From NCBI RefSeq assembly GCF_946480385.1, contig NZ_CAMLJP010000038.1, forward strand, positions 1 through 51,680: a DNA stretch of 51,680 bases, read 5' to 3'. Positions 3,122 through 43,363 of the stretch are shown in pieces. This DNA is from an uncultured Azospirillum sp. GTDB taxonomy: Bacteria > Pseudomonadota > Alphaproteobacteria > Azospirillales > Azospirillaceae. The notes under the pieces were generated by a model. That model saw nothing but the letters and a program-made list of their open reading frames with translations, had not been told where the DNA came from and did no database searches. The stretch's first letter is position 1. Each line of letters opens with the position of its first letter. A program made the translations under genes and the position numbers.

Positions 3122-5012
<1,891 letters not shown>

Positions 5013-39740: not shown

Positions 39741-39814
39741 TGGGGGATCGTCTAGCGGTAGGACAGCGGACTCTGACTCCGCCAGCCTAGGTTCGAATCC
39801 TAGTCCCCCAACCA
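39741..39814 (+). tRNA. tRNA-Gln (anticodon CTG)
   Basis: A 74-nt cloverleaf with encoded CCA. The acceptor stem TGGGGGA (39741-39747) pairs with TCCCCCA (39804-39810), the anticodon stem GCGGA/TCCGC encloses loop CTCTGAC with anticodon CTG (reads CAG), and the T arm contains GGTTCGAATCC. It is the likely integration target of the adjacent prophage: the integrase gene begins to its right and phage DNA starts at the 3' end. Confidence 0.97.
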
Positions 39815-39842
39815 ACCTTTCCCGAGCAAAATCAACACGTTA

Positions 39843-40009: not shown

Positions 40010-41203
40010 TCATGGCGGCCCTCCCAAGAGCCGAGCCTGAAGCTGTGCCATCGCTTCCCGGTCGTCGTCCGGGGATGGGAACAGGTGACCGTAGATGTCG
40101 TAGGTCACGGTGATGCTGGAGTGGCCCATCAACGCCTGGACCTTCTTCGGCCCCCAGCCTGCTTCAATGAACAGGGAGGCGGCGGCATGCCGCAGGGAGT
40201 GGAAGGGATAGGGCGGATCGGTGGCTTCCTTCGCCATCAGCCCGCAGGCGCGTAGCAACGGATAGTAGCCCTGACGCAGCAGGTTGGTGTGCAGGATCAC
40301 TGAACCTTGTTCGGAGGGAAACACAAGGTCCAACTCCGTGTTCGGGCAGACCAGCCGCCACTCCTTCAAGGTGTTCACCACCAGCGGCGCGAGCGGGATG
40401 TCTCGGCGGCCGGCCTTGGACTTTGGTGGCCCGAGCTTCTGATATCGGTCAGCTCGTTCTCGGACGCGGATCAGCCCAGCCTTGAGATCGACATTCGACC
40501 AGCGCAGGGCCCGCAGTTCGGATGCCCGCATGCCGGTAAAGATCGCGGTCACGATCAGGGGGCGCCAGGGGATCGGTAAAATGCGCTGTGGTCGCCCTTG
40601 CCCGGCGACCCATCGGCCGAGCGTCACGCGGCTCAGAGGGTACGTTTCCGCCGCTTTGGCCAGCAGGGCGCGGATGTCCTCCTTCGGCGGGATCGGCGCG
40701 TCCTCTTCATCCTCGATCCGCCGCTTATCGACGCTGACCGCCTCGGCCGGGTTCTGAGCGATCAGCCCCTTGCGGCGAGCGACCTTTAGAATTCCCTTTA
40801 GGCTGGTCAGTACCGCCCGTGCCATCTGCCGAGAGCGGGTGCGGACCAGTTCGTCCTTGAACGCCTCCACCTTGGGCGTGGTGAGTTGCGACAGCTTCGT
40901 CTCGCCTATCAGCGGGACGATGTGCAGGCGCATGTGCTGGTCACGCTGGGTGATTGTGCTGGCTTCCAGTCCATCGGCTTGGCCAGCCTTGATCCATAAC
41001 TCAGCCGCCGCAGCCACCGTCACCGACACTGAGTCAGGCGTGTGGATACCGGCCGCCACCTCGGCGCGGGCTTTCGTTTCGAAAGCGTCAGCCTCCTTCT
41101 TTGTCCTGAATTGTCGAGACCGCCGGTGCCCGGCCTGATCCTTGTAGTCGACCTGCCAGACGGCCTTCCCGCTGGGCAGAGTGCGCTTGCGTACAGATGC
41201 CAT
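40010..41203 (-). CDS. int: Phage tyrosine integrase
   Basis: Site-specific recombinase of 397 residues. An N-terminal arm-binding region (VWQVDYKDQAGHRRSRQFRTK) is followed by a SAM-like core-binding domain (residues 60-160) and the catalytic domain. The catalytic set is complete: Arg226 (GMRASELRAL), a lysine around 261-263, His335 and Arg338 (FHSLRHAAAS), His361 (MGHSS) and the nucleophile Tyr371 (YDIYGHLF). It is transcribed towards the tRNA-Gln gene, its probable attachment site. Its promoter overlaps a 28-bp palindromic site shared with the divergent gene at 41334. Confidence 0.95.
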   Translation of the reverse strand: MASVRKRTLPSGKAVWQVDYKDQAGHRRSRQFRTKKEADAFETKARAEVAAGIHTPDSVSVTVAAAAELWIKAGQADGLEASTITQRDQHMRLHIVPLIGETKLSQLTTPKVEAFKDELVRTRSRQMARAVLTSLKGILKVARRKGLIAQNPAEAVSVDKRRIEDEEDAPIPPKEDIRALLAKAAETYPLSRVTLGRWVAGQGRPQRILPIPWRPLIVTAIFTGMRASELRALRWSNVDLKAGLIRVRERADRYQKLGPPKSKAGRRDIPLAPLVVNTLKEWRLVCPNTELDLVFPSEQGSVILHTNLLRQGYYPLLRACGLMAKEATDPPYPFHSLRHAAASLFIEAGWGPKKVQALMGHSSITVTYDIYGHLFPSPDDDREAMAQLQARLLGGPP

Positions 41204-41245
41204 TTCACACTCTATCTATTGACTATCCGTTCTATCGGCTACAAG

Positions 41246-41310
41246 ATGCTACCCGACATCCGCTTTTGCGTCAAAAGCAATTGACGGGGTTAGCTGCAAA
41301 GCCCTATATA
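41246..41310. promoter_or_regulatory. Divergent promoter pair with compound operator (O1)
   Basis: Back-to-back promoters share one operator. Rightward: TTGACG 41281-41286, 18-bp spacer, TATATA 41305-41310, serving the gene at 41334. Leftward: TTGACG on the minus strand (41274-41269), 17-bp spacer, TAGCAT (41251-41246), serving int. The two -35 boxes face away from each other with six bases between. The same stretch forms a palindrome GCTTTTG-CGT-CAAAAGC (41262-41278), and CGTCAA-6-TTGACG is a second, overlapping inverted repeat. The whole 28-bp unit 41262-41289 recurs inverted at 42154-42181. Confidence 0.7.
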
Positions 41311-41333
41311 TCCATCCGTTAGCAGGCGTTCCA

Positions 41334-42125
41334 ATGGCTAAGTTTTCTGAACTTATGGACAAACTGGCAGATGCAATCGACTGGACGCCAGGGCAAGTCC
41401 GGCAATTTGGGAGGCACGCCAGGGAGGGTGGATATATAACGACCACTGGAGCACGCGGAAACGCTGCACCCGATGCCAATTCAACTGATGCGGCAAACCT
41501 ACTCATTGCAATGCTTGGCAGTGAGCATGCAAAGGAGGCGGCGGAGACTATCAAAAAGTGTCGCAAGCTTGATAGTGATAGCGCTCCAGGAACGATGGAT
41601 TGGATCTCTTTAACTGAGGAGCAGAAAAAATCGATAAAGTGTCCCTTCATTGACGATCAAGGTTTTCTCTCTCGAACTCCCAGGCTTCCACCAGAGTTTG
41701 TTTGGATGGTTGGGGGATGCGAGTTTGGCTACGCACTTGAAAAACTAATTGATATGGCTGTGAAGGGAGAGCTTCAGGAGGTATCGAAAAGAAAGTGTGA
41801 AATATATGCTTTTCCAAGAGTTGTGATATCCGTCAAATCACCGAATGCACAAGCATGCATACGAATAAATGATCAGTGGATGTTTACAAAAAAGATGGAT
41901 GAGATGGTGGAGCAGTATGGCGATGATCTTGATGTCATCGCTAAGATGGCACCGTCACCCATCATCGAGCAGTATTTTGTTGCTGGTCGGGAACGGGTTG
42001 CGGAGGATTTTACCGCGAAGAAATCGGCAACGATTGGCTCTCTGCAAAAGAAGCCCCGCTTTGATATTGTGAGGGAAATCAACCAGAGTGTTATTGAGCG
42101 TATTGGTGAGATCATCCGAAACTAG
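41334..42125 (+). CDS. Unrecognised protein with N-terminal wHTH-like region; putative prophage regulator
   Basis: A 263-residue protein I cannot assign. Residues 5-65 (MDKLADAIDWTPGQVRQFGRHARE, continued GYITTTGARGN, then STDAANLLIAMLGS) resemble a small winged-helix module seen at the N terminus of uncharacterised alphaproteobacterial phage proteins: a recognition-helix-like segment, a wing rich in Gly/Thr/Arg, then a helix. The remaining 190 residues have two cysteine-containing segments and no known motif. Codon use is AT-rich compared with the chromosome. It occupies the position of a repressor gene: divergent from int, with a strong promoter overlapped by a palindrome. A role as lysogeny regulator is inferred from position only. 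Confidence 0.7.
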   Translation: MAKFSELMDKLADAIDWTPGQVRQFGRHAREGGYITTTGARGNAAPDANSTDAANLLIAMLGSEHAKEAAETIKKCRKLDSDSAPGTMDWISLTEEQKKSIKCPFIDDQGFLSRTPRLPPEFVWMVGGCEFGYALEKLIDMAVKGELQEVSKRKCEIYAFPRVVISVKSPNAQACIRINDQWMFTKKMDEMVEQYGDDLDVIAKMAPSPIIEQYFVAGRERVAEDFTAKKSATIGSLQKKPRFDIVREINQSVIERIGEIIRN

Positions 42126-42140
42126 CAAGGGGTCCGAAAG

Positions 42141-42407
42141 ATGAATAGGCGCGCCACGTCAACTGCTTTTGACGCAAAAGCACAAGCCGAGACGTTGGAA
42201 GATGTTGGAACTGAGTCGATTGCCCATGATCTTCTCCAAGGAGCAGAGGCCATCGGAGCATTCATGGGGCTTGATCCCCGGCAGGTATATTATCAGAGCA
42301 AAAGACTGCCAATATTTAAGATCGGTGCGCTGATTTGCGCTAGAAAATCAACTCTAATAAGGTGGATTGAAGAGCAAGAAAGCAGAACAAGGAATTCTGC
42401 AGCATGA
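42141..42407 (+). CDS. Small DNA-binding protein, excisionase/AlpA-like
   Basis: An 88-residue protein whose residues 30-82 (LLQGAEAIGAFMGLDPRQVY, then YQSKRLPIFKIGALICARKS, then TLIRWIEEQE) match the MerR/excisionase-type HTH: helix-turn-helix, a wing with a hydrophobic strand, and a final helix. Proteins of this kind are common in alphaproteobacterial prophages as excisionase or Cro-like regulators. AAGGGG eight bases before ATG 42141 supports the start. It follows the 263-aa gene by 15 bp. The second copy of the 28-bp palindromic site falls inside codons 5-14, so binding there would affect its own transcription. Confidence 0.75.
   Translation: MNRRATSTAFDAKAQAETLEDVGTESIAHDLLQGAEAIGAFMGLDPRQVYYQSKRLPIFKIGALICARKSTLIRWIEEQESRTRNSAA
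42154..42181 (-). promoter_or_regulatory. Second copy of the 28-bp operator (O2), inverted
   Basis: On the minus strand this site equals the 41262-41289 site at 26 of 28 positions; the 17-bp palindrome with arms GCTTTTG and CAAAAGC is identical. It also keeps the CGTCAA-6-TTGACG inverted repeat. Unlike the first copy, no -10 sequence is found at 16-18 bp on either side, so it looks like a binding site rather than a promoter. It lies inside the coding sequence of the small DNA-binding protein, 865 bp from the first copy. Confidence 0.7.
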
Positions 42408-42493
42408 ATATCATCTCAGAAATATTTGGTCAGCGGGGCGCTCTCGCGCCAACGATCAGCCCCGCTGCCCGCGTTGTCCGGTCCTTTAAGTAA
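42404..42493 (+). CDS. Possible 29-aa peptide overlapping the upstream gene
   Basis: A short frame starting with an ATGA overlap of the upstream stop codon, encoding 29 residues (MNIISEIFGQRGALAPTISP and nine more). AAGGA about ten bases upstream could serve as ribosome-binding site. Overlapping ATGA junctions are used repeatedly elsewhere in this prophage, which raises the chance that it is translated, but length alone makes it uncertain. No homology recognised. Confidence 0.35.
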   Translation: MNIISEIFGQRGALAPTISPAARVVRSFK

Positions 42494-42529
42494 GTCCCGA
42501 AACCCACTAATCGCTTAGGAGAGCGACCA

Positions 42530-43363
42530 ATGAGTGAGCCATTTATGGCCGCAAGGCCTTCGTGCGTCCAGAACTCATACGGGGCACAAACGGGCAACAC
42601 CCCGAATATCATCGCCTTCAACGGTGTTCCGGTGATGACCACGGAACGGCTGGCGCATGCATATGGGACCGATCCACAGCGCATCATCCAGAATTACAAT
42701 CGAAACAAGGCTCGGTTCGTTCAAGGAACGCATGTTATCCGCGTGACTGGTGCTGCACTTCGTCAACTCAAAGCTTCATATCCAAATGACATCGACCCCT
42801 GCGCCCCTTCTGTCCTGTTGTGGACGGAACGCGGTGCGCTGGCTCACGCCAAGATCCTCGAAACGGACGAGGCATGGCAGGTCTACGACCGGCTGGTCGA
42901 CACCTACTTTGCCGTGAAGGAAGGGGTGATCGAGCCGCCGACCAAGAAGGTTGGAACCCCGCGGCTCAGCGGCGCGCTCCTGCGCGAACTGACGTCCTTC
43001 CCCGACAAGCTGCGCGCTGCCTTCCCCTCGCTGTCCGAGAACTCGCTCCAGGCAGCCTTCAGCCGGCTGAGCGGTCAGGTTCTCGGCGAACCGCTGATCC
43101 CGCTCCCGCGCCTGGAGGGGCGGTTCTACACGGCGGGCGACATTGCGACGGAGCACGAAATCTCCATCAACCGCGTGGGCCGGATCGCCAACGAGGCCGG
43201 CATTCCCCGCGACGACTCGACCGGAGAGATGCGGCTCGGCCAATCCGAACACAGCAGTCGGCAGGTGGAGCACTGGCGGTGGAATGCTCACGGCAAGTCG
43301 CTGGTCGACGCCGCGATCAGAGAATGGAAGACGCAGGGTGTCTCGGCCGACGTGAAGCGCTGA
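42530..43363 (+). CDS. ORF6N-domain antirepressor-like phage protein
   Basis: A 277-residue phage protein. Residues 25-115 form an ORF6N domain: IIAFNGVPVMTTERLAHAYG, then RIIQNYNRNKARFVQGTHVI, then LWTERGALAHAKILETDEAW. ORF6N occurs in phage antirepressors and Rha-like regulators. The C-terminal part (GRFYTAGDIATEHEISINRV, then WRWNAHGKSLVDAAI) looks like a second, HTH-like module with a KilA-C-like flavour. AGGAGAG eight bases before ATG 42530 is a strong ribosome-binding site. From here on the G+C content and codon bias return to those of the host. Probably acts in lytic-lysogenic control. Confidence 0.82.
   Translation: MSEPFMAARPSCVQNSYGAQTGNTPNIIAFNGVPVMTTERLAHAYGTDPQRIIQNYNRNKARFVQGTHVIRVTGAALRQLKASYPNDIDPCAPSVLLWTERGALAHAKILETDEAWQVYDRLVDTYFAVKEGVIEPPTKKVGTPRLSGALLRELTSFPDKLRAAFPSLSENSLQAAFSRLSGQVLGEPLIPLPRLEGRFYTAGDIATEHEISINRVGRIANEAGIPRDDSTGEMRLGQSEHSSRQVEHWRWNAHGKSLVDAAIREWKTQGVSADVKR

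Follow-up and report, generated by a model that had tools for sequence, protein, structure and literature searches.

In the contig analysed here (the window, 51,680 nucleotides from an uncultured Azospirillum sp.), the gene of a 263-aa regulator near the start of a phage-derived element is bracketed by two inverted copies of a 28-nt site, called O1 and O2. The regulator belongs to a family with a recurrent operator type that resembles O1 and O2, and the region containing the regulator gene and both sites has been exchanged as a block in a related element. We propose, with a probability of roughly 0.55, that the 263-aa protein is an autoregulated repressor that would act from O1 on two divergent promoters, O2 adding a DNA loop or a transcription roadblock.

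The regulatory region and its two inverted sites

The element begins at a tRNA-Gln(ctg) gene detected by ARAGORN (39741-39814, + strand), next to which lies the gene of a tyrosine integrase (int, 40010-41203, - strand; PF00589, 1.2e-22; phrog_1, 4.9e-73), and it continues with a rightward early region. The 3' end of the tRNA gene is probably the attachment site of the element, and in G001, the nearest genome compared, likeness to the window ends at 39820, just beyond this gene. Both attR and the right end of the element were sought within the 51,680-nt window and not found there; since the window holds no attR, a full prophage and a smaller phage-derived island are both possible. In the related strain G042, a second copy of the tRNA-Gln end (window positions 39771-39822) is located at G042:C15:88323-88374, about 18 kb past the first one. 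Several ORFs between these two copies are not phage-like by eye, and the second copy may be a remnant or belong to another tRNA.

The rightward genes start with that of the 263-aa protein (41334-42125, + strand), followed by that of an 88-aa small DNA-binding-like protein (42141-42407, + strand; phrog_18541, a group of unknown function, 5.5e-19). An ORF6N-type antirepressor is encoded two genes behind the regulator (42530-43363, + strand; PF10543, 8.6e-17; phrog_1726, 1.9e-40), and the early region also encodes a replication initiator and a primase-helicase. The 88-aa protein has no Pfam match and is putatively Xis/AlpA-like, by position and size only. The preliminary description had recognised no CI- or Cro-type protein nearby and, in agreement with it, neither the 263-aa nor the 88-aa protein has a CI/Cro-type HTH match in Pfam or PHROG. 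The G+C content of 41204-42407, which comprises the intergenic region, the 263-aa gene and the 88-aa gene, is about 47%, versus 66% for the window.

A repeat search confirmed the inverted compound palindrome described earlier: O1 (41262-41289) and O2 (42154-42181) form 28-nt inverted arms, complementary at 26 of 28 positions (93%) and separated by 864 nt, not by the 865 first given. Both inner palindromes, GCTTTTG-CGT-CAAAAGC and CGTCAA-6-TTGACG, are present. In a 7-9-7 register the core of O1 is GCTTTTG-cgtcaaaag-CAATTGA (41262-41284) and that of O2 lies at 42159-42181; read in this way the site is a poor palindrome (4/7 pairs by eye), and it contains three half-site-like words. A 25-base pattern of the site, allowing up to three mismatches, has two matches in the 51,680 bp, namely O1 and O2, and none in 100 shuffles. 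As previously described, O2 spans codons 5-14 of the 88-aa ORF, whose start is at 42141, and begins 13 bp into it. The view that O1 and O2 look like operators is supported.

Near-site matches (up to two mismatches) in 38 of 194 genomes were taken as chance, and an ORF scan of 15 loci with such matches (L001-L015) revealed no regulator of the 263-aa family. The one exact viral match to the site (L016) lies within the ORF of another protein. An RNA-hairpin role for O2 was not supported either, the hairpin of the window being no stronger than those of shuffles (z 0.52).

The proposed overlap of O1 with the -35 boxes of two divergent promoters, those of int and of the 263-aa gene, is supported as well, the promoters themselves being putative. 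The leftward int promoter would be TTGACG-17-TAGCAT (41246-41274, - strand). It was the sole promoter-like match of a consensus scan of 41150-42560, and since shuffles gave a mean of 1.6 matches, the scan is no evidence by itself. By eye, the putative int promoter of the related locus L091 reads TTGACA-17-TAGCGT, with the same spacing as in the window. The rightward promoter of the 263-aa gene, TTGACG-18-TATATA (41281-41310, + strand), was also recognised by eye and was missed by the consensus scan of 41150-42560. The CGTCAA-6-TTGACG palindrome equals two back-to-back TTGACG boxes, so that this half of the site may be promoter rather than operator.

A family of regulators and its paired operators

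As a single query, the 263-aa protein has no match in 5.8 billion proteins, phage records and viral contigs. No Pfam or PHROG match was obtained, nor a Pfam match to the MerR HTH domain at E<=0.01, and a DNA-level search of phages and plasmids was equally negative. Its family was reached through loci fetched by means of the 88-aa gene, whose neighbours were then inspected. Among these fetched loci, tblastn with the 263-aa protein of the window detects L091, L089, L049 and L097 at E<=1e-4, the likeness consisting of stretches within residues 1-147. A search with profile A2 returned three proteins: P0015 (the same as L021 in A2), P0016, which is 139 aa long and identical to part of the regulator of the window, and the new P0017. 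Profile searches extend the family to 28 listed members; successive searches of one set of 82 genomes found it in 12 and then 15 of them, and those of a set of 385 genomes of the class in 5 and then 6. The window's protein matches profile A3 at 5.4e-60, a value that is partly so by construction because the window is a row of A3. It carries the mark of the family, an N-terminal domain with a GARG/GRG motif and a DAANLLIA-like segment.

The family, found in alphaproteobacterial phage elements, consists of putative winged-HTH regulators. Eight A2 members have no convincing match in Pfam, NCBIfam or PHROGs (best E 0.0089, 0.0026 and 0.041, respectively, each for single members). With the N-terminal profile A4, a PDB search gave 19 chains at E<=10, and 14 of them (E 0.16-1.1) are what we take, from their titles, to be winged-HTH regulators, presumably of the Lrp, IscR, SmtB, NmtR, DtxR and ArsR types. 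Two designed TIM barrels that outrank these chains (0.004-0.005) are aligned at positions 57-77 and were taken as spurious. Pfam searches with 17 N-terminal domains gave HTH_24 in four (best 0.031) and HTH_5 in one (0.0079), beside MoCF_biosynth in three (0.01); the window's own N-terminal domain has no HTH match in Pfam, the weak matches coming from other members. The N-terminal winged HTH of the 263-aa protein, seen through family alignments A2-A4, is called putative because all these matches are sub-threshold.

In a tree of 15 N-terminal domains (first 95 residues), the window and L091, from Azospirillum tabaci, are sister regulators (96/93), L091 being flagged as a long branch. Seven members are located beside int (the window, L017/L089, L021, L023/L091, L024, L049 and L050), and in all of them the regulator points away from int. 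Some relatives adjoin late genes instead of int: a prohead protease gene in L132 (2202-2801) and L124 (387-1121), and a portal gene in L156 (3979-5277).

Many promoters of the family contain repeated sites. A paired test for 7-9-7 palindromes, applied to the 120 bp that precede each regulator gene, gave p<=0.02 for 13 of 25 members, versus 0.5 expected. The 25 are what is left of the 28 members after removal of L147 (weak), the interrupted L123 and L136, which nearly duplicates L134; L150 and L151, which look like near copies, were both retained. For the same spacer of 9, the test was significant for one of 21 controls with another regulator in the slot, the start positions of several of these controls being approximate and not all of them shown to be MerR-like, and for two of 100 stretches taken at random from these loci. 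In nine of the 13 significant members the two sites lie 35-42 bp apart, as a tandem pair in the promoter. The 12 non-significant members include the window (p=0.43), L023/L091 (0.16), L021 (0.85), L020 (0.61), L024 (0.06), L150 and L151; the window has no tandem pair in its promoter, its second site being 864 bp off.

Other odd spacers also gave significant members (of 25): 11 for spacer 7, 10 for 11, nine for 5, six each for 3 and 13, and three for 15; even spacers from 4 to 14 gave one to five. The paired statistic also rewards the likeness of the two sites, and nearby odd spacers share their centre. Since these spacers likewise exceed the 0.5 expected, the repetition of the sites is clearer than their exact spacer. 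An earlier single-site count in 14 members found, for spacer 9, a 6-of-7 palindrome in nine members (3.9 expected) and 16 sites in total (4.5 expected), with 15 sites each for spacers 7 and 17. Half-site specificity varies within the family (CCATTTG, CTATCTG, ATTCTG and GTTTTGG types), and paired sites like CCATTTG-N9-CAAATGG occur in several members.

The sites of the window were compared to this operator type by means of a half-site matrix built from 20 sites (40 half-sites) of ten relatives, with the window and L091 excluded. The ten were picked by eye after the paired test, all with 35-42 bp between their two sites: nine that reached p<=0.02, plus L050 (p=0.030, register shifted by one); L156, L122, L124 and L102, also with p<=0.02, were left out, their sites being 32, 47, 58 and 57 bp apart, respectively. 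Of the 40 half-sites, 38 have G beside the spacer and all 40 have A or T as their third base. With this matrix the window sites (41262 and 42159) come second and third among 51,658 positions, and first and second among the 1,251 positions within 41200-42450. A matrix from five of the ten members ranks them 2 and 4, and leave-one-relative-out matrices keep them at ranks 1-4; among column-permuted matrices, 35 of 5,040 matched the result. Because O1 and O2 are copies, their ranks count as one result and not as two. The sites of L091 rank 2 and 1 of 10,188 positions, with 106 of 5,040 permuted matrices as good. When the spacer is changed to 3, both sites of the window come first, and they stay within the first 21 for spacers 7, 8 and 15; for L091, the spacer 8 matrix gives ranks 2 and 3. 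The window sites are therefore predicted to carry the operator half-site of the family, and since the site contains three half-site-like words, the half-site type is claimed with more confidence than the spacing. The shared operator type and the matrix ranks together make the 263-aa protein the likely binder of O1 and O2.

With the five-member matrix only, a further match over the int start codon (41200-41222) came 1st of 51,658 positions. One of its halves has no G beside the spacer, and the match may be due to chance.

Bracketing of the regulator gene and exchange of the block

The bracketing layout is rare. In a layout test covering 49 non-redundant loci that have int and an 88-aa relative, the best inverted 24-mer match was sought between the int-regulator region and the junction of the regulator with the 88-aa gene; L055 and L102, whose stretches overlap, were set aside from the correct pairs and retained in the 2,352 mispairings. 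Matches of at least 19 were found in three of 47 loci (window 23, L031/L115 20, L023/L091 19) and in two of the 2,352 mispaired comparisons, L061 with L046 (20) and the L091 promoter with O2 of the window (19). The latter match indicates a site shared between the window and L091. A 22-mer test of 27 of the 28 family members (L102 was too near its locus end) found an inverted pair in the window (21/22) and L023/L091 (17/22) only, with 17/22 in direct orientation in L024; mispaired controls scored at least 17 six times among 702 inverted comparisons and seven times among 702 direct ones. Taken by the 22-mer test alone the inverted pair of L091 is suggestive, and it is the matrix that carries it. 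Among these 27 members, bracketing is confined to the window and its sister L091; the 28-bp site does not flank homologues of the 263-aa gene as a rule, which the preliminary description had proposed to check. When 11 members were scanned over 3.2-7.9 kb for their own operator, no copy turned up behind the regulator. Upstream there are additional weak matches (11-12 of 14), three in L097 (0.5 expected) and one each in L131, L049 and L156 (0.2-0.95 expected).

The order int(-), an ORF in the slot of the 263-aa gene(+), 88-aa relative(+) recurs beside many relatives of the 88-aa gene, in a survey restricted to ORFs of the strand that runs from int towards that gene. Elsewhere the slot is filled by other proteins: five of ten scanned match MerR_1 at E<=0.01, four of the ten above the curated cut-off, and the other five show nothing relevant. 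Several loci with a MerR-type regulator in the slot, L115 among them, share this order with the window. For instance, in L115 an inverted pair (3362-3385 and 3989-4012; 20/24) brackets a MerR-type regulator as in the window, but both the regulator (MerR_1) and the site are unrelated to those of the window, a possible case of convergence. A broader reading, which we put forward tentatively and hold less probable than the proposed switch, is that the family is an undescribed one of phage master regulators with an operator code of its own, of which one branch has no tandem pair in the promoter and brackets its own gene with inverted sites ~0.8 kb apart instead, the bracketing of a MerR-type regulator having arisen separately.

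Comparison with locus L110 of genome G042 reveals an exchanged block (41204-42500) that comprises the int-263 intergenic region, the 263-aa gene, O2 and the 88-aa gene. L110 is 92.2% identical to the window up to the int start codon (41203) and 91.6% identical again from 42501, whereas 41204-42500 has no blastn match in L110 at E<=1e-5. What L110 has there instead is another regulator from this family, the same protein as P0015 of Azospirillum sp. B21, whose promoter contains an inverted pair, together with a distant 88-aa relative. O1 and O2 are both internal to the block and do not form its edges. The block appears to move as one, as an exchangeable immunity module would.

A proposed switch and its biological meaning

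According to our proposal, the 263-aa protein would be the master regulator of the element, most likely a repressor of its own gene as well, activation instead of repression being possible. Bound at O1, it would cover both -35 boxes and thereby limit the synthesis of integrase and its own. The same protein would bind O2, the near-perfect inverted copy just behind its gene. The early genes (88-aa protein, antirepressor and replication) share their orientation with the regulator gene, and O2 could therefore serve to silence them: with O2 occupied, the regulator would still be made in the lysogen, and transcription of the 88-aa gene would be halted by an O1-O2 loop or by a roadblock. The ORF6N antirepressor (42530-43363), which the preliminary description had left unmentioned, is a natural candidate to inactivate the 263-aa regulator and may in this way relieve repression.

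The best surviving alternative, to which we give about a third of the weight of this proposal, is that the 88-aa gene has a promoter that has escaped recognition and O2 is simply its operator, three promoters being repressed singly by the same regulator with neither loop nor roadblock. It is in L091 that this explanation finds its footing. There, a terminator-like hairpin with a T run (~4838-4867) closes the regulator gene and immediately precedes the second site; when 4830-4925 (96 nt) was shuffled 200 times, two of the shuffles folded equally well. The 88-aa gene, separated in this way from the regulator, may need its own promoter, and the second site lies in that leader. The same hairpin would do part of the silencing and make a roadblock redundant in L091, which weakens the roadblock reading for that locus. 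In the window, however, O2 begins inside the 88-aa ORF, and the consensus scan, a weak test, gave no + strand promoter-like match in 41150-42560.

The preliminary description had suggested that the switch may use an undescribed regulator, either the 263-aa or the 88-aa protein. The first choice has gained ground, the 263-aa protein being the better candidate and belonging to no curated family. That the 88-aa protein binds both sites instead, as an Xis/AlpA-like excisionase or activator, seems unlikely. The protein is small and DNA-binding-like, and its gene adjoins int in many fetched loci, but its family is conserved, occurring in many loci with unrelated sites, which speaks against it as the binder; in an alignment of 14 members its N-terminal part is not conserved. 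Moreover, paired operators go with the 263-aa family (13/25) and not with other regulators in the slot (1/21).

We consider it more doubtful still that O2 is a recent chance duplicate without function. An identity of 26/28 could indeed be young, but L091 has a diverged pair (19/24) in the same two places, top-ranked by a matrix to which it did not contribute. Recombination ends, in the form of an invertible segment or transposon-like repeats moving or flipping the 263-aa gene, would fit 28-bp inverted repeats around a 47% G+C gene in a 66% G+C window, but they are very improbable given that int is the sole recombinase among ten proteins scanned, that the outer ends are by eye without target-site duplication, that the exchanged block, with its ends at the int start codon and at 42500, is wider than the repeat pair on either side, and that the regulator faces away from int in all seven members beside it.

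The principle of such a switch is already known from other systems. DeoR, GalR and LacI each bridge a promoter-proximal operator and a second one inside a coding gene, over distances of ~0.1-0.9 kb. These are host metabolic repressors, whereas the pair in the window is part of a phage element and encloses the gene of the regulator itself. In lambda CI and related switches, one repressor controls divergent promoters, some operators are long-range, and the immunity block is exchangeable. The switch proposed for the window would share these three traits, divergent promoters, distant operators and exchangeability; unlike CI, the 263-aa gene is transcribed with the early genes and diverges from int, and it has no CI/Cro match.

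A further likeness concerns the repressors of cluster A mycobacteriophages (L5, TipsytheTRex). These proteins are described (PMC9283540) as binding operators in promoters and also intergenic stoperators, proposed to halt elongation, which are asymmetric 13-bp sites bound by a monomer, orientation-dependent and present in more than 20 copies per genome. The proposed switch would likewise have a phage repressor with an operator in a promoter and a site elsewhere, but here two palindromic sites are found in 51.7 kb. Many asymmetric 13-bp sites of the cluster A style were not seen in the 51.7-kb window, which has the two 25-base site matches mentioned above.

Literature searches on Azospirillum prophage regulators or operators showed, among the titles and abstract openings listed, no description of this switch, and a search for a winged-helix repressor gene of temperate phages with flanking operators found none. 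Within these searches, the 263-aa family and its bracketing layout appear new as a variant of a known principle. They provide a candidate immunity regulator and a candidate operator code for temperate elements of plant-associated alphaproteobacteria. If the bracketing operators act by looping or as a roadblock, a repressor could share its direction of transcription with the genes that it silences. If the broader reading given above is true, bracketing would be a general solution for a repressor gene located upstream of, and reading into, the lytic operon that its product silences.
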